Source: a virus
Length of the DNA: 23,461 nucleotides
IMG/VR virus record: IMGVR_UViG_3300042884_000135
Coordinates: 1 to 23,461 of that record
Direction: 5' to 3' (one strand)
Position 1 is the first letter of the stretch; each line of letters starts with the position of its first letter. Positions 9,132 through 23,381 of the stretch are shown one piece after another. The position numbers and the translations under genes were made by a program. Under the pieces are notes generated by a model that was not told where the DNA came from, ran no database searches, and saw only the letters and a program-made list of their open reading frames with translations.

Positions 9132-9643
9132 GCTGTATACTTCAACCAAATGTCACCATTTACCCCATCACCAGAAACAGGTGCTTCAGTTGATGTCCAA
9201 ATTGTGTTATTGGTTGTTGCTCCAGATCGAACATAAACGCCTGCAAGTTTACTAGCCGCAATAGCAGCAGTAGATGCAACTTTGGCGTTGGTTACAGCAC
9301 TAGACGCGAGTTTTGCTTCCGTTATGTTACCGTCAAGAACTTTAACGGTTGTTACAGCTCCGGTTCCAATTTTGATTGCTGTTACTGATCCTGTTGCTAA
9401 CTGTGTTTCAGTTATTGCGCCAGCGGCATGAGCGGCTGCAATTGCAGCATTTAGTTCTACTTCTGTAACTTCACCGACTGGTCCTTGAGGTCCTTGAGGT
9501 CCTGTTACATCACCAGCATCTAACGTTGTGCCATCGTGTTTTGTTAGAATCAAATGACCTGAGCCATTTATTGTTCCACTAACAACAGATGAGCCTTCTA
9601 TGGCTTCCATTCTTGCTGCGGTAAATACTGTTACTGTTGCCAT
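9128..9643 (-). CDS. Short fibre protein with collagen-like patch and decad repeats
   Basis: This is 171 residues. Residues 1-47 begin MATVTVFTAARMEAIEGSSV, a start seen in minor tail proteins of Gram-positive phages. A short collagen-like G-P-Q-G-P-Q-G-P patch follows at 48-55, then a helical Ala-rich linker. Residues 75-134 are six 10-residue repeats of the G-[AS]-[VI]-T-x-x-x-[LIV]-x-[TSD] type, compatible with a beta-helix or trimeric shaft. The C-terminus has a G-D-G-V-N-G-D-I-W-L-K-Y strand, like the G-V-D-G-D-F-Y-I spacer in the large fibre at 21204-23381. AGGAGG precedes the ATG, which shares a base with the upstream stop (TAATG). It is probably a trimeric tail fibre or appendage. Confidence 0.65.
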   Translation of the reverse strand: MATVTVFTAARMEAIEGSSVVSGTINGSGHLILTKHDGTTLDAGDVTGPQGPQGPVGEVTEVELNAAIAAAHAAGAITETQLATGSVTAIKIGTGAVTTVKVLDGNITEAKLASSAVTNAKVASTAAIAASKLAGVYVRSGATTNNTIWTSTEAPVSGDGVNGDIWLKYTA

Positions 9644-10461
9644 TAGATATCCTCCTCGTTTTTATTTGAACTACTGATTGTATATGTTTCTGTATCTATA
9701 ACAGTTACGTTATCAGCTATAATATCGTACTCAGTTGGATCAATACCGTCTTGTACGATTATACCGTCTCTTGCTGATATAGCGGTCCATGTTCCATTAC
9801 CATTATCTTGAACAATGAGTCTATCCCATTTACGAATAAACGTTGTTAAACTTTTCATTGTTGGCAATAATGGTTCTCGTGTTGCATCACCGTATAAAAT
9901 ATCTTCTAAGTCTAATAGTAACCATGGATCTATTTTTCGACTATCTATAATTAAATGTGAAGACGGACGGTGACCCTCAATGACTTCAGGAATGCTAGTG
10001 ATATCCCATGAAAAATCATCAGGTTCTAAATCTAAAGCTAAAGTTTTTCTTACTTTGTTAGCTGGGGTGGCGGTAAGGTTATACAAAATATGTAATTTAT
10101 AACCACTACTAAAGTTGTTATCATCTTCGCCTATTAGTGTTCTATAGCATAAGCCGAATCGTTTGATCGGCTGCTCTGTTAAATATACACCATCTTGATC
10201 TTCGATAACGCCTTCGCATTCCAAAAACTCATCTGGATAGGTGTATGCAGACATGCTTCCTGAGTAATTACCTAACGTAACTAAATCGTTAAATTTAGTA
10301 GCGTTAAAGTATAGTGGTTCTACTTTAGTATCGTTCTCTTCGGATACTCTAATTAAGCCGTTCCAAGGAACACCACTTTTACCTTCAACATAAAGAACTG
10401 CACGATCTAAACCAGCTTCATAAAATTTTGATCCTAATTCATGCCAATTAATAACAGTCAT
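9643..10461 (-). CDS. Second major tail protein paralogue
   Basis: This 272-residue protein is plainly homologous to the protein at 11044-11910 along its first 190 residues. Shared landmarks in order are W-x-[EQ]-L-G-x-[KR]-F-[YF]-E-[AT]-G-[LV]-D, [VA]-[PA]-W-N-G-L, A-Y-T-[YF]-P-D-E-F, R-F/K-F-G-L-[CS]-Y-R-T, G-Y-K-L-H and L-[ED]-D-[IF]-L-Y-G. The C-terminus differs: in place of the Ig-like domain it has N-G-N-G-T-W-T-A-I and T-E-T-Y-T-I-S-S-S, another tail-tube appendage type. ATG at 10461 is preceded by AAAGGAGG; the longer GTG start lacks this. Codons here are AT-rich, unlike the GC-rich first copy, suggesting lower expression. It could be a minor tube subunit, a tube-end cap, or a redundant duplicate. 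Confidence 0.8.
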   Translation of the reverse strand: MTVINWHELGSKFYEAGLDRAVLYVEGKSGVPWNGLIRVSEENDTKVEPLYFNATKFNDLVTLGNYSGSMSAYTYPDEFLECEGVIEDQDGVYLTEQPIKRFGLCYRTLIGEDDNNFSSGYKLHILYNLTATPANKVRKTLALDLEPDDFSWDITSIPEVIEGHRPSSHLIIDSRKIDPWLLLDLEDILYGDATREPLLPTMKSLTTFIRKWDRLIVQDNGNGTWTAISARDGIIVQDGIDPTEYDIIADNVTVIDTETYTISSSNKNEEDI

Positions 10462-10465
10462 AAGA

Positions 10466-10473
10466 CCTCCTTT
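10466..10473 (-). promoter_or_regulatory. Shine-Dalgarno site fixing the second tail-protein start
   Basis: AAAGGAGG lies four bases upstream of ATG 10461 and overlaps the last codons of the chaperone gene. It decides the start as MTVINWHELG rather than the GTG at 10479, and it is the longest ribosome-site match I noticed in the window. Confidence 0.75.
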
Positions 10474-11011
10474 ATCCACTTGTTTTTAGTTCTGCTTTTC
10501 GTTTTGCGTTTAATTCGCGATTTCGCATAGCGATCTCATTCTTAGACATCTTCTTTGGATTAGCATTCTTTAAGTTACATATTCTAATCAAAGCAAAAAG
10601 TCTATTAAGATGCCATGTCTCACACTCAAATGGAATATTAAAAGTAATCAGCCAAAAATAAATCAATTCAGATGTTACAATTTCGCCTCTTCCACGTTTT
10701 TCAGGCATAGTACCAAAAGTAGTAGCTGATCTTTTAGATTCAATATATGAGTTTATTTGTTGAATATTTTTATCAGAAAGCTTTGAAAATATGTCATCTG
10801 GATATTCATTGAGTATCATAGCTTTTATATAACCATAAATTTCTTCAGGTGTTTTTTTAGAATCACCTAAAAATGGCTTTTCAAACTCCGATTCCCACTT
10901 TGACAGTGAGATCAGAGAATGCTCAAGATTTAAAACAATGTCGCCATGTGATTCAAACTCTTCTGTTTCTTCGTTAAAGAATTCGTTTCCACTAACAATA
11001 ATTGTAAGCAT
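10472..11011 (-). CDS. Tail assembly chaperone-like protein
   Basis: This 179-residue protein starts MLTIIVSGNEFFNEETEEF and has the diagnostic L-E-H-S-L-I-S-L-S-K-W-E-S-E-F-E-K-P-F-L block at about 30-49. The middle holds K-T-P-E-E-I-Y-G-Y-I and a later E-L-I-Y-F-W-L motif; the last 30 residues are Lys/Arg-rich. This family lies just after the major tail protein in many Gram-positive phages and chaperones the tape measure during tail assembly. It begins after AGGAGATCAGAG and ends inside the ribosome site of the next gene. I found no canonical slippery heptamer near its end and no out-of-frame extension, so no G/GT-type frameshift is claimed. Its tape measure partner is unusually far away. 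Confidence 0.75.
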   Translation of the reverse strand: MLTIIVSGNEFFNEETEEFESHGDIVLNLEHSLISLSKWESEFEKPFLGDSKKTPEEIYGYIKAMILNEYPDDIFSKLSDKNIQQINSYIESKRSATTFGTMPEKRGRGEIVTSELIYFWLITFNIPFECETWHLNRLFALIRICNLKNANPKKMSKNEIAMRNRELNAKRKAELKTSG

Positions 11012-11043: not shown

Positions 11044-11910
11044 TCAGTCCCAGATGTACAACCAGTCGTCGTCAACGTTAGCTGGGAAGTAGTATCCAGC
11101 GTTAGGACGAGCGGTGATGATTGTATTCTCCGTGATGGTGTATGCGCCACTAGAAAGAGCCGTTAGGCCATCATAGTAGGTTACTCCAGCTTGGGATGGG
11201 ATTGTGATGATAGTGCTACCGTTGAATGACGGTACTTGCGGGGTAACGCTTGAGGTCTCTCCAGAGAACAATGCGATTACAGCATCGGGCAGCGGGAGGC
11301 TGGGGTCTGTTCCAGCAGTACCATAAAGGAAATCTTCCAAGGTACCGAGTGCTGAGGAGTTAACCTTAGTCGAATCAATCGTCAAGATTGAAGTCGGCTT
11401 AAGCATTCCAACAGAAACAGGCGTTGTTGCGATTGACCAGCTGAAAGTAATAGCCTCTGGCGAATCGTTAACTGTGTTGTAGGCGCGTTCCGAAGGACTT
11501 GCCTGGCAACCGTAAATAAGGTGAAGCTTATATCCTAGTTCATCGCCAGAAATATCGTTACCCATACGAGTACGATATGAAAGGCCGAACTTACTACGTG
11601 TCTGCTGTCCAACAGTAACACCACTCGTAGGAGTGGCCATACCGTCGAATTGAGCAAATTCGTCGGGGAAAGTGTAAGCTTCAATGGTTGCGCTAAATTC
11701 TTCAACAGAATACATGTTGAGGTACTTAACGTTGTCTGCGTACATTGGAGTTGGTTCTGCTCCGGATGGTGACTCAGTAACACTGGTCAGACCATTCCAA
11801 GCAACACCATCAGTGTAAACGCCATTTACGTTTGGTAGGTAGAGGACACCTTTGTCGACTCCGGTTTCAAAGAAACGTTCGCCGAGCTGGTCCCAATAAA
11901 GAATTGACAT
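11044..11910 (-). CDS. Major tail protein with C-terminal Ig-like domain
   Basis: This 288-residue tail-tube protein follows AAAGGAGATCAATT and begins MSILYWDQLGERFFETG. Residues 1-205 form the tube domain (V-A-W-N-G-L, A-Y-T-F-P-D-E-F, F-G-L-S-Y-R-T, S-I-L-T-I-D-S, L-E-D-F-L-Y-G). Residues 223-288 are a separate beta domain (T-I-I-T-I-P, G-V-T-Y, N-A-G-Y-Y-F-P, D-D-D-W) homologous to the end of the capsid protein. Codon use is clearly richer in G and C than in the flanking neck genes, as expected for a protein needed in hundreds of copies. This, rather than the paralogue at 9643-10461, is likely the main tube subunit. The tail terminator lies directly upstream and the chaperone directly downstream, the standard order. 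Confidence 0.88.
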   Translation of the reverse strand: MSILYWDQLGERFFETGVDKGVLYLPNVNGVYTDGVAWNGLTSVTESPSGAEPTPMYADNVKYLNMYSVEEFSATIEAYTFPDEFAQFDGMATPTSGVTVGQQTRSKFGLSYRTRMGNDISGDELGYKLHLIYGCQASPSERAYNTVNDSPEAITFSWSIATTPVSVGMLKPTSILTIDSTKVNSSALGTLEDFLYGTAGTDPSLPLPDAVIALFSGETSSVTPQVPSFNGSTIITIPSQAGVTYYDGLTALSSGAYTITENTIITARPNAGYYFPANVDDDWLYIWD

Positions 11911-12557: not shown

Positions 12558-14627
12558 TCAGGCGGTGTACTTAAAGGTCCAGCTATCGTCTTCGCTAGTT
12601 GCGAAGTAATATCCGGCAGATGCTGGGTAAGCAACGATAGTCGCGTCTGCTGTAATTACAACAGTTCCGGTCTTAACGGTCGTTCCCTGCTTGTACGTTA
12701 CACCAGTAACTGTAGGAATGGTGATCGTGTTGGTGGCGCTGACAAAGGTCGGTGCAACTGGAGTAACAAGAGCTGCGTTAGCCGCAACCTTCTTAACAAC
12801 AATGGCTGCCTTCATCTTAATGAGTGCTCCACACAAACGAGTCTCGATGAGGTACTTGTGCTGGTTGTAGTCGATGTCGAAGTCGTCGAACATTGAGATT
12901 GCTCCGCCCTTGTCAGCACCGAGGACATAGTCCTGCGGGTTAACGAGGATAGCAACGAGTTCTGCTTCTTCTTCCATAACTTCAACCGGAACAATGTCCA
13001 GAACACGCAGTTCCGAAGCCAATTCACCAAGATCACGATAGATTCGACGACCAAGTGTGTCCTTGAGTAGCAAGAACTGTGAGATATAGGTTTCGGTGGT
13101 GTACATGGTTGGTGTACCGGTACCCTTGAAGTGCTTGCGGTTTTTGATGATCGCATCAATAACTTCCTGCACTGATGAGTTTGCGTCATCCAAGTTAACG
13201 TTAACAACGGTGGTGTACAACTCGTGATCCTTAGCGATCGGGCGAATGTTACCTTCGTTGATCTTGTCTTCGTGCGAAACGTCACGACCGTCACCGATCA
13301 AGATTGCGCGAGCAATTTCTTCATCGAGCATCATGCGCATTTCAGCCTTCAACCAGGTAACGACATCAAAGTCGGTAATGTCGATCATGTCATCACGGTC
13401 AAGCTTCTGCTTCTTGTAGATGGTAGTAGGAGTCGTGATGCGCTTTGACACGCCGAAGTACTCTTCCTTCTTCAAGTCGCCAGTTACATAACCCTTAGCA
13501 CGGGCATCATCAAGCGTGATGTCGGCATGCATGGTCTTAATGCGGCTGAACGGGCTCTTACGGGTGTCGCCAAGCAACTTAGTGACCCATTCCGTACGAC
13601 GCTTAAGCCATTCTGGAACAGCATCAAGTGCAGTAGCTTCTGGGAATAGCTGATCAACATCGGTAATACCGTGTGACAATGCATATGACTCAATTGCATC
13701 TTTAAGCGATCCGCCCTTTGAGGCATCAGCAACGATACCCTGCAAATCAGCGTGAGAAATAGCAGCCTGTGCCTTATTGTTGTTGTTTTCAAAAATGTTA
13801 TTTGACATTTCCATACCTTTCGTGTTTGCGTGATTAATTTCTTCTTGTGCATCTTCAAAGAGTGCATTAAAGAGCTCTTGTTGTTGTTCGTTTAGTGATT
13901 CATAAACTTCTTGTGCACTAGCATCATCGTCTAATCCACTTTGAGCCATTACTGCTTCGTCTTGACTATCTTCTACGGCTTGACCAATTAAGTAATATAC
14001 TACTTGCTTTTGTTCATCACTTAGTGTATCAAATACGTCTTGAACAGTCATATCTGAACCAGCTGCGGCTTCTGTCTTGTTAGGCATATCTGCCATGTTA
14101 GCATCTCCTGATTTGTGTGTTAATACTGCTTCTTCAACAATATCAATTTCTTTTTTATTAACTGAGTGAAAGAGTTCAATACCCGTATAAATAATAGCTT
14201 CATCTTCAAGCTGAGTCTCAAAACCATCTGAGTGACGAATAGTTACACTTTCAATAATTGCCCCTGGATTAGCTCCAGAAAGAACTAGACTTACTTCTCG
14301 AATTGCACCGTGAAGTACGCGACCAGCTTTTTCAATTAATTCATTTGCCCAGATTGACAGCATATTAATATCACCATGTTCAAGTAAACCTTTAGCATGC
14401 GAAGCTTTTACTGAGCTATTAAAATATCCATATGCGTAAACACCGTCTTCTCGATTTTCAAGAATAGCGTGTCCAAGCACATTTTCTGGATCATTATGGC
14501 CGTGTTGCCATACTAATGGGACTTTCATTTGATCCTGATGTTTAAAAGCACCAGGCATAATTGTCCTACCATCGGTACAACGCAGCCCTGCTTTAGTAGC
14601 GTAACCACTAAAATCATAGTTTGCCAT
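12558..14627 (-). CDS. Prohead protease - scaffold linker - major capsid protein fusion
   Basis: This is 689 residues from ATG 14627, preceded by AAAGGA; ATG 14645, in ATGA overlap with the upstream stop, would add six. Residues 1-150 are an HK97-family (S78-type) prohead protease with the catalytic His in V-W-Q-H42-G-H and Ser in R-E-V-S113-L-V-L-S-G-A-N-P-G-A. Residues about 180-270 are acidic and helical with two related repeats, resembling a scaffold or delta domain. Residues 274-620 are an HK97-fold capsid protein (R-T-E-W-V, K-R-I-T-T-P-T-T-I, D-F-D-V-V-T-W-L-K-A-E-M-R, A-I-L-I-G-D-G-R). Residues 622-689 are an Ig-like domain. GC rises sharply at about 13,808: 35 of 60 bases at 12901-12960 against 22 of 60 at 14161-14220. 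No stop or frameshift separates the parts. Confidence 0.9.
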   Translation of the reverse strand: MANYDFSGYATKAGLRCTDGRTIMPGAFKHQDQMKVPLVWQHGHNDPENVLGHAILENREDGVYAYGYFNSSVKASHAKGLLEHGDINMLSIWANELIEKAGRVLHGAIREVSLVLSGANPGAIIESVTIRHSDGFETQLEDEAIIYTGIELFHSVNKKEIDIVEEAVLTHKSGDANMADMPNKTEAAAGSDMTVQDVFDTLSDEQKQVVYYLIGQAVEDSQDEAVMAQSGLDDDASAQEVYESLNEQQQELFNALFEDAQEEINHANTKGMEMSNNIFENNNNKAQAAISHADLQGIVADASKGGSLKDAIESYALSHGITDVDQLFPEATALDAVPEWLKRRTEWVTKLLGDTRKSPFSRIKTMHADITLDDARAKGYVTGDLKKEEYFGVSKRITTPTTIYKKQKLDRDDMIDITDFDVVTWLKAEMRMMLDEEIARAILIGDGRDVSHEDKINEGNIRPIAKDHELYTTVVNVNLDDANSSVQEVIDAIIKNRKHFKGTGTPTMYTTETYISQFLLLKDTLGRRIYRDLGELASELRVLDIVPVEVMEEEAELVAILVNPQDYVLGADKGGAISMFDDFDIDYNQHKYLIETRLCGALIKMKAAIVVKKVAANAALVTPVAPTFVSATNTITIPTVTGVTYKQGTTVKTGTVVITADATIVAYPASAGYYFATSEDDSWTFKYTA
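13806..13820 (-). promoter_or_regulatory. Internal ribosome site and start for stand-alone capsid protein
   Basis: Inside the fusion ORF, AAAGG (13816-13820) lies seven bases before an in-frame ATG (13808). Starting there gives MSNNIFENNNNK and a 416-residue capsid protein with its Ig-like domain, a normal stand-alone length. The site falls where base composition changes. It is inferred from sequence; the competing ATG at 13814 is too close to the ribosome site. Confidence 0.6.
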
Positions 14628-14641
14628 TGTTTTTATTCCTT

Positions 14642-14938
14642 TCATAGAGATGTCTTTTGTTTAAAAATCTGTTGTATTTTTGTTACTTCTGGTTCTTCAA
14701 CGAGATTTATTATTTTTTGAACCATTGCATTTGGTATGTGTAAAATGGAGTCTAGACAATCAACTTCGCTAAGCGACTGTGCTATCGAGGTGTGTTTTTT
14801 TTTACCATATTTTTTAGCATCAATTAAATATCCAACAGATTTAACAACATAGTCACCATCGTCTTCTAAATCATTTAAATATTCCCATGAACCAGAACCA
14901 GCATGCGCATCATGCCAAATAACAAGAACTAGTTTCAT
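14642..14938 (-). CDS. Conserved small phage protein of unknown function
   Basis: This 98-residue protein lies between portal and protease genes, coupled to both by ATGA overlaps (14935-14938; 14642-14645 if the next gene uses ATG 14645). It begins MKLVLVIWHDAHAGSGSW, then has acidic D-L-E-D-D-G-D-Y, V-K-S-V-G-Y-L-I-D, S-I-A-Q-S-L, and I-L-H-I-P-N-A-M-V near residue 70. The W-x-D-A, S-V-G-x-L and H-I-P-x-x-x-V order resembles a family of small phage proteins of unknown role that I have seen near head genes. A run of nine A residues in the coding strand (near 14795-14803) lies in the K-K-K-H stretch. No enzyme motif is visible. Confidence 0.6.
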   Translation of the reverse strand: MKLVLVIWHDAHAGSGSWEYLNDLEDDGDYVVKSVGYLIDAKKYGKKKHTSIAQSLSEVDCLDSILHIPNAMVQKIINLVEEPEVTKIQQIFKQKTSL

Positions 14939-16325: not shown

Positions 16326-16748
16326 TTATGCTTTATAGTTCAAATCAGTAACTCTAACATTAGATCCAAACTTTAATATAGCGGTTCGTACTTTAGCTTC
16401 TCCAGCATTAGATTTTTTTTGAAATGCTGCGCCTTTATCTACTTTTCTTTGTGCGGCTTTTTTTAGACTCCCTTTAGCCCGAGCAAGGGCGATTGGTGAT
16501 ATACCAGATGCAAATCTTAGTTTATCAAGTTTACCTGATTTTCCGCTTGCCACTCTTTTATTTAAATCTATATTTTTTTGAAGTCTAACGGTGGTACCGC
16601 TTACACGTTGTCCACTTTTATTTTTATAACCACTAAGAATTCCGGCTTTACTAAATCCAGCAGTAGTAACATTTTTCTTTTGACCCCATTTCATACCTTT
16701 AACACCTGCGTGTTCTAAATATGATTCTAAACTACTAAAGTTGTTCAT
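16326..16748 (-). CDS. KGMxWG-tag basic head-associated protein (third copy)
   Basis: This 140-residue protein begins MNNFSSLESY, and residues 10-22 are Y-L-E-H-A-G-V-K-G-M-K-W-G, aligning position for position with the gene upstream. The rest is strongly basic (many Lys/Arg, few acidic residues) with short helical stretches and no membrane segment. The motif is widespread in phage genomes next to head genes (often as H-x-G-I-K-G-x-K-W-G), and its role is, to my knowledge, unsettled. Position between terminase and portal suggests an internal head protein or packaging factor, with the basic body contacting DNA. ATG follows AGGAAAAAA. I do not recognise the C-terminal region. Confidence 0.7.
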   Translation of the reverse strand: MNNFSSLESYLEHAGVKGMKWGQKKNVTTAGFSKAGILSGYKNKSGQRVSGTTVRLQKNIDLNKRVASGKSGKLDKLRFASGISPIALARAKGSLKKAAQRKVDKGAAFQKKSNAGEAKVRTAILKFGSNVRVTDLNYKA

Positions 16749-16760
16749 TTTTTTTCCTAT

Positions 16761-17162
16761 TCAGCTCTGTGTTGCGTTATATATAGTTGAGGCAAGAGTT
16801 GCCGCAGCAGTTCCTAAGAACAGAGCAGCTACAGCTTTTTCTCCTCGCGTTGACTTATTTGCTAGTTTGTAGTCTGTATCGTTTGCAAGTTCTTTGTATT
16901 TTTTTTCAGCTGCTTTTTTATAATAGTCAAATTCTTTTTTATTTTTTGCAACTACAGCACTATCTTCTAAAAGTTGAGCCTCACGAGCTTTAATTAAAGT
17001 ATTCATTCGCGCTTGCTGAATCGCCTTAGTTTTTGCTCTACCTTTAAGTTTTGGTTCTGCTTTTGGTTCCGAGGAAGAGTTAGAGGCGCTTTTTTTACCC
17101 CATCGCATTCCCTTTTTACCAAAGTGTTCAAGATAATTATCTACGTTATCAAAATTGTGCAT
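16761..17162 (-). CDS. KGMxWG-tag protein with coiled coil and C-terminal hydrophobic helix (second copy)
   Basis: This is 133 residues, starting MHNFDNVDNY after AGGAGACTGAA. Residues 10-22 are Y-L-E-H-F-G-K-K-G-M-R-W-G. A Ser/Lys/Pro-rich linker follows, then a long charged coiled coil at about 45-100 (A-R-E-A-Q-L-L-E-D to K-K-Y-K-E-L-A). The C-terminus has an Ala-rich hydrophobic helix (A-V-A-A-L-F-L-G-T-A-A-A-T-L-A-S). This is the same plan as the second half of the protein at 18927-19634. It sits directly after the large terminase. Likely a virion-internal or capsid-associated protein; the hydrophobic end could contact membrane on ejection or pack in the head. Function unproven. Confidence 0.7.
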   Translation of the reverse strand: MHNFDNVDNYLEHFGKKGMRWGKKSASNSSSEPKAEPKLKGRAKTKAIQQARMNTLIKAREAQLLEDSAVVAKNKKEFDYYKKAAEKKYKELANDTDYKLANKSTRGEKAVAALFLGTAAATLASTIYNATQS

Positions 17163-18926: not shown

Positions 18927-19634
18927 CTAAGACTTAGCTTTATCCATTGCGGCTTTAATCGCAAGACCCGTAGCAGCAGTAGCAACAGCACTAACAGCAA
19001 CGGTTCCGGCTTGTCCGAGTAATTTACTAGCTGCTTTTTTACCTGTAGTAGACGGTCTAGTAGCTTTATTCAATTCTATGTATTTTTTCTCAGTTTCTAA
19101 ACGCTTAACTCTACGTTGAAGTTCAGCATCAGATAATTTCGTTGGTGGCTTTTTATACGTTGTTCTTTTTGCTACTTTTTTAGATGCTTTACTTGAACTA
19201 CGACCACCACTACGAGTACCCCAACGCATACCTTTTTTGCCGTAATGAGCTAAGTGATTTTCTAAACTTATAGATTGGCTGACTGAATCAGACCTTTTTT
19301 CAATTTCTTCATTGATTAAATTTTTCATATATTGTTCACCTCGACTTCCTACTGCTAGCCATTTGACTTGCGCGATAACTCCCGCAATTCTAAAATCATT
19401 GTAATGTCTTGCGTTCCATGCTTCTCTTAGCTTTAGAGCATCAATTTCAATCTGCGAATTTGGAACACCATTTCGTTTTGTTATTGGATACAGTTTTCGG
19501 TATTGATCATTACCTCTAATGTTTCCGCCGAGCTTCCAAATATCAGGATGCTCTGTGCGGATCATTTCAGCAAAGTCAGGATCAAACCGTTTCCACTTAC
19601 TTGTCCTAAAGGATATGGTTTCTTCAGTAGCCAT
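18927..19634 (-). CDS. Two-domain head protein with internal KGMxWG tag (first copy)
   Basis: This is 235 residues. Residues 1-115 form a separate domain (K-W-K-R-F-D-P-D-F-A-E, P-D-I-W-K-L-G-G-N-I-R-G-N, E-A-W-N-A-R-H, D-F-R-I-A-G-V-I-A-Q-V-K-W, V-G-S-R-G-E-Q-Y-M) of a type I have seen near phage head genes; its function is unknown to me. Residues 127-139 are H-L-A-H-Y-G-K-K-G-M-R-W-G. Then come a basic linker, L-S-D-A-E-L-Q-R-R-V-K-R-L-E-T-E-K-K-Y-I (a coiled coil frequent in tagged phage proteins), and an Ala/Gly-rich hydrophobic C-terminus. The second half mirrors the gene at 16761-17162, so this looks like a domain fused to the tagged protein type. It begins six bases after the adaptor gene. 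Confidence 0.7.
   Translation of the reverse strand: MATEETISFRTSKWKRFDPDFAEMIRTEHPDIWKLGGNIRGNDQYRKLYPITKRNGVPNSQIEIDALKLREAWNARHYNDFRIAGVIAQVKWLAVGSRGEQYMKNLINEEIEKRSDSVSQSISLENHLAHYGKKGMRWGTRSGGRSSSKASKKVAKRTTYKKPPTKLSDAELQRRVKRLETEKKYIELNKATRPSTTGKKAASKLLGQAGTVAVSAVATAATGLAIKAAMDKAKS

Positions 19635-21203: not shown

Positions 21204-21207
<4 letters not shown>
21070..21207 (-). CDS. 45-residue helical protein coupled to the fibre gene
   Basis: This gene was found by hand reading of the gap between fibre and small-terminase genes. ATG 21207 overlaps the fibre TGA as ATGA, and the frame ends at TAA 21070-21072, 25 bases before the next start. The product begins [18 protein letters not shown], continues with [15 protein letters not shown] as one amphipathic helix or short coiled coil, and ends in a polar tail. 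Overlap, good coding character and a clean end support expression. Position after an S74 fibre suggests a fibre-assembly helper or a small regulator. I do not recognise a named family. Confidence 0.65.

Positions 21208-23381
<2,174 letters not shown>

Follow-up and report, generated by a model that had tools for sequence, protein, structure and literature searches.

A Conserved In-Frame Start Codon in Phage Protease-Capsid Fusion Genes Probably Yields a Stand-Alone Capsid Protein

A protease, a linker, and a capsid protein in one frame

The window analyzed here is the whole 23,461-nucleotide stretch of viral DNA. Its minus strand carries an open reading frame that joins a prohead-protease-like domain, an acidic linker, and a major capsid protein without an intervening stop, as the original prediction had described, leaving the strand unstated. 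Shine-Dalgarno (SD) strength is given throughout as the duplex energy (kcal/mol) with the 16S tail, with cut-offs of -5, -7, and -8. The features of the locus are the following.

14637-14642, minus: AAAGGA, the upstream (protease) SD, serving the ATG at 14627-14625; duplex energy -9.6
12558-14627, minus: protease-linker-capsid ORF of 689 codons, stop at 12558-12560; phrog_3270 match
14097-14627, minus: prohead-protease-like domain, with invariant H42, H44, and S113 and a fold model
14105-14109, minus: AGGAG before a second internal start, the ATG at 14096-14094 with which the linker begins; duplex energy -7.4
13809-14096, minus: acidic, hypervariable, scaffold-like linker of 96 residues (23 D/E, 3 K/R)
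13816-13820, minus: AAAGG, SD core of the capsid start, ending seven bases before the ATG; conserved in relatives
13806-13808, minus: internal ATG, the putative capsid start
12561-13808, minus: major capsid protein with an HK97 fold (PF05065; AlphaFold2 model)
12561-12752, minus: C-terminal, beta-rich, Ig-like domain of the capsid protein, with strands in the model

The profile of phrog_3270 (603 positions), a family called head maturation protease, covers residues 7-654 of the window protein (E = 2e-234), and this match identifies the protein as a full-length protease-capsid fusion of that family, of which about 250 members were found in the phage collection searched. No stop separates the two halves, either in the window or in full-length relatives, and the fused frame is open in every relative but one stand-alone copy. 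The ATG at 14627 is most likely the start of the ORF; an alternative ATG at 14645, which would add six codons, has a duplex energy of -1.5 as compared to -9.6.

An alignment of 40 protease halves retains H42, H44, and S113, with S113 situated within a IREVSLVLAGANPGA motif that is presumably of the prohead-protease type. For this half, the AlphaFold2 model (pLDDT 82) has its best PDB fold matches among the herpesvirus assembly proteases, where the top probability is 0.99 but with an E-value of 0.02 and a TM score of about 0.4. Taken together, the profile, the invariant His and Ser motif, and the weak-E fold matches indicate that the N-terminal half is prohead-protease-like. In the other half, PF05065 (Phage_capsid) matches residues 418-618 above cut-off, and the model of the 416-residue internal product (pLDDT 79) adopts the HK97 fold; the best Foldseek match is the capsid of Gordonia phage Cozz (E = 5e-9), with the HK97 proheads just behind. 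Sequence searches of the PDB with the window protein or with profiles gave no useful match.

The Ig-like C-terminal domain is missing from the capsid proteins of many relatives. In the window, it shares 42% identity with the C-terminal end of the major tail protein (11056-11274), which points to the same add-on domain on head and tail proteins. The window also encodes two related major-tail-like proteins (9643-10479 and 11044-11910) with an N-terminal WHELG/WDQLG..FYEAG/FFETG motif, and in ReqiPepy6 a pair of this kind carries the annotation of head proteins.

An internal start codon kept as nucleotides

Between the prohead-protease-like domain and the HK97-fold capsid lies the in-frame ATG at 13808, with AAAGG (13820-13816) seven bases before it, exactly where the original prediction had placed both. 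Initiation at this codon would give a product of 416 residues (46.1 kDa), the length that had been foreseen. Our comparison of the site took in 292 distinct relatives from environmental and lactococcal phages, cultured actinophages, and gut prophages, which form 49 clusters at 60% capsid identity. All 292 have a start codon at the homologous position (269 ATG, 18 GTG, and 5 TTG), preceded by an SD of -5 or stronger in 290/292 and of -7 or stronger in 278/292. Loss of the internal site in homologues had been named as the observation that would count against dual initiation; the site is instead kept, even in distant Firmicute prophages. The relatives share ancestry and are not independent, so that these counts overstate the number of events. 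However, the linker around the site is hypervariable, and the region is thus otherwise free to change.

The site also stands apart from the rest of the gene. Mean SD energy is -8.2 at the internal site and -2.0 at other in-frame start codons of the same ORFs, and just two alignment columns have both a start codon in >90% of members and a mean SD energy below -8: the internal start and the start of the ORF itself. Each of the first 76 distinct relatives has a start codon directly ahead of the conserved capsid N terminus, N(V/I)FE, and an SD-like sequence upstream. A held-out set of 115 distant relatives from viral contigs, unused in defining the site, has a start codon at the predicted place in 115/115 (108 ATG, 4 GTG, 3 TTG) and an SD of -7 or stronger in 112/115, as compared to 4.1% of 2,062 control windows. 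A start codon is likewise present at the site in all 76 fused, prophage-like loci taken from bacterial genomes, and 22 more viral loci concur. Four apparent exceptions among the bacterial loci (L309, L326, L333, and L336) proved to be cases of a misplaced site, for which reading the sequence gives SD energies of -11.5 to -12.7; a fifth (L370), counted among the 22 loci, was settled in the same way by inspection.

The pattern of variation bears on whether the site acts in the RNA or in the protein. If only the full-length fusion were translated and its own protease freed the capsid by cutting the linker, the site would be a cleavage or hinge motif at the protein level. Such a scheme accords with the presence of a protease-like domain, with the self-cleavage of prohead components that is normal in HK97-like phages, and with the acidic, variable character that the linker has in common with cleaved linkers. 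A protein motif, however, would not be expected to vary as this one does. The residues upstream of the start vary freely (EGS, KGN, EED, NGG, YGG, KED) while GGAGG or AAGG is kept, and the SD core is read in any of the three phases, as EG, KG, EED, GG, KE, or MED; it is therefore the nucleotides that are conserved and not the amino acids. The residue at the site is only ever Met, Val, or Leu, and these are encoded only as ATG, GTG, and TTG, even though, in these ORFs, GTG accounts for about 15% of the codons for Val and TTG for about 7% of those for Leu. Synonymous choice just upstream is equally skewed: Glu before Gly is GAA in 49 cases and GAG in none, and Lys before Gly is AAA in 17 and AAG in none, as compared to 2,234 GAG and 1,454 GAA, and 2,399 AAG and 467 AAA, elsewhere in the same ORFs. 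Cleavage would also not produce the switch in codon use at the site that is described below. We consider release by cleavage alone to be very improbable.

Intragenic SD-like sequences have been proposed to slow ribosomes, and such a brake could act here as a translational pause during which the protease folds before the capsid is made, with no initiation taking place. A pause has no need of a start codon at a fixed spacing, yet the distance from SD to start codon is mostly 6-11 bases. The RNA at the site is less structured than the rest of the gene in 70/70 sampled members (mean -4.3 vs -8.5 kcal/mol), and this openness, the exclusive use of GTG and TTG, the codon-use switch, and the existence of a stand-alone capsid gene would all be left unexplained. 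We consider a pause without initiation to be extremely improbable.

We therefore favor in-frame internal translation initiation, by which one gene would give at least two proteins, a protease-linker-capsid fusion and a stand-alone capsid protein of 416 residues. On the comparative sequence evidence, we place the probability of this reading at roughly 0.93.

Codon use and the nested products

The original prediction had coupled the internal start to a break in base composition. Its counts are exact (22/60 G+C at 14161-14220 and 35/60 at 12901-12960), and its placement of the break at 13808 holds for the family: in the relatives, the change point in GC3 falls at the start codon with a median offset of +6 codons, and GC3 relative to the ORF mean rises from -0.098 (codons -20 to -1) to +0.044 (codons 0 to 19). 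The placement does not hold for the main break in the window itself, where the strongest change point (GC3 0.23 to 0.57, log-likelihood gain 42) lies 66 codons into the capsid, near 13610, and a weaker step (0.20 to 0.34, gain 3) precedes the start by 8 codons, near 13832.

The break, as distinct from the start, could be a recombination scar that joins genes of different origin and has nothing to do with expression. Phage head genes are mosaic, and the sharpest break in the window, 66 codons past the start, would suit a junction of this kind. A scar would not readily account for a shift that runs in one direction in nearly all relatives over a wide GC range: the capsid half has the higher GC3 in 199/206 and the higher share of C-ending two-fold codons in 199/205. 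Nor would it account for the like shift of the major tail protein, which exceeds the portal in 130/148 relatives. We regard a scar as rather unlikely. Instead, the break matches expression class. The share of C-ending codons among two-fold codons in the window is 0.66 in the capsid half and 0.68 in the major tail protein, as compared to 0.24 in the protease half, 0.37 in both portal and terminase, and 0.36 in the linker. More frequent translation of the capsid half than of the protease half would be expected to leave this pattern, which points, indirectly, to such a difference. Together with the start codon and SD kept in the relatives, the family-wide break lends support to the two products that the original prediction had proposed.

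An internal SD stronger than that of the protease is ruled out: the protease start is as strong or stronger, both in the window (-9.6 vs -7.6 at the capsid start) and in the family mean (-9.6 vs -9.0). A rare fusion and an abundant capsid are thus not explained by SD strength alone. A promoter scan returned fewer promoter-like sites than in shuffled sequences, which leaves a separate capsid transcript without support.

We envisage that initiation at 14627 would produce the protease-linker-capsid fusion and that initiation at 13808 would produce the capsid alone (416 aa). The fusion, which we infer to be the minor product, may co-assemble with the capsid protein through its own capsid domain and in this way bring the protease into the prohead, where the protease could excise itself together with the linker.

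A scaffold role is probable for the linker, which contains one conserved helix-like motif (TVQDVFDTLSDEQK in the window). Two loci (L037 and L078) carry two tandem copies of the linker motif TVQDVYDSM-EQQ, which suggests that the scaffold-like part has grown by repeat expansion. A second internal start, absent from the original prediction, is found at 14096, where CAGGAG is followed after 8 bases by ATG; in the window phage and about 40% of relatives, such a start may direct synthesis of a linker-capsid protein. Equivalents of this site reach -7 or stronger in 73/178 relatives vs 19/352 control stretches, and -8 or stronger in only 62/178 relatives vs 5/352 control stretches. Linker starts are seen in Faecalibacterium phage oengus, in Lactococcus phage CHPC971 (as GTG), and in Arthrobacter phages Mudcat and Gordon. 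A scaffold start in all members is ruled out, as many high-GC relatives have no start codon there, and the linker start is accordingly a lineage feature. If used, it would imply a 57 kDa linker-capsid protein and hence three nested products of 76, 57, and 46 kDa.

Parallels, origin, and consequences

Nested in-frame products are known from other protease genes. The C/Nu3 gene of phage lambda is a protease-scaffold gene with an in-frame internal start, and herpesvirus UL26/UL26.5 pairs a protease-scaffold fusion with a nested, shorter in-frame product. The herpesvirus arrangement resembles that of the window in its nested shorter product, and the window protease fold resembles the herpesvirus proteases; it differs in that the short product is a scaffold made from its own transcript and that the capsid protein has a separate gene. 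In Mu-like phages, the protease-scaffold gene contains an internal in-frame Val codon with an SD and a 9-nt spacer (PMC4378225). Both lambda C/Nu3 and Mu I/Z thus share with the window a protease gene whose 3' part has an in-frame internal start. In those phages, however, internal initiation yields the scaffold, and the capsid has a gene of its own, whereas in the window family the main internal product would be the capsid itself, with an additional scaffold-like start in some members. A scaffold domain fused ahead of the capsid is standard for HK97-type capsids (PMC10275583). HK97 has the same capsid fold as the window, but its protease is a separate gene and its delta domain is present on all capsid subunits.

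Protease-capsid fusions were already known, as the original prediction had stated. Those of Arthrobacter and Microbacterium phages are called apparent or unusual in the portions of the two reports consulted (PMC5513430, PMC7302621), and the same portions make no mention of an internal capsid start. The papers on Samy (PMC11302927) and Patience (PMC10635136) hold nothing informative on internal initiation, and we found no description of internal initiation in protease-capsid fusions in the open-access literature. The phrog_3270 fusions have the same fused ORF as the window, and the annotated records examined give a single product. What appears to be new is the internal capsid start; the fusion itself and internal starts in protease-scaffold genes are known already.

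Several further cases bear on the origin of the fused gene. The stand-alone capsid gene of the family (L354, a locus 81 bases from a contig end) has as its first codon a GTG, placed after AAGGAGG at exactly the homologous position, with a stop just upstream. The Tybeckvirinae contain fused and unfused forms inside one subfamily: protease and capsid are encoded apart in Lactobacillus phage 8014-B2 (TTGGAGGTCTAATTAATGAAGACAAAAAAG) and form one protease-scaffold-capsid ORF in SA-C12, where TTGGAGG and ATGAAGACAAAAAAG are kept in frame. SA-C12 is like the window in retaining the capsid SD and ATG inside a fused ORF; the pair was found via an unrelated fusion, that of the Microbacterium cluster EE phages, in which an internal ATG with an SD is conserved at the protease boundary. 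In view of these parallels, the simplest route is loss of a stop codon with retention of the ribosome-binding site, and this seems to have happened more than once. Another unrelated fusion, in Gordonia phage EricDab, has no strong start between protease and capsid.

More broadly, we lean toward the idea that the fusions in several unrelated lineages are former gene clusters that lost their stops and kept their ribosome-binding sites. Their nested starts would yield protease-scaffold-capsid, scaffold-capsid, and capsid proteins and so dose the protease and scaffold of the prohead, and the N terminus of the main capsid protein would be misannotated in hundreds of phage genomes.

If dual initiation is correct, current annotation places the start of this family's major capsid protein about 250 codons too early, with consequences for virion proteomics, for structural work on capsids, and for annotation pipelines. 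Dual initiation would also explain how protease and capsid can be fused in a phage without every subunit bearing a protease. Stop loss with a retained ribosome-binding site is, in addition, a simple evolutionary route that is testable in cultured actinophages.

Several minor observations were made alongside. In 8014-B2 and SA-C12 (L275 2941-4044 and L274 3049-5238), an internal TTG follows AAGGAGG in the protease part and is likely a nested scaffold start. EricDab gp9 (L273 2515-4401) begins with an N-terminal membrane (holin-like) segment, followed by an internal ATG with an SD, and possibly reflects a wrong start or a triple fusion. Near the terminase and portal in the window, three otherwise different proteins (16326-16748, 16761-17162, and 18927-19634) have a common LEHxGxKGMxWG motif, with DUF7211 in one of them. 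Lastly, a long collagen-like (GPTGPTG), tail-fibre-like protein is encoded at 21204-23381 of the window.
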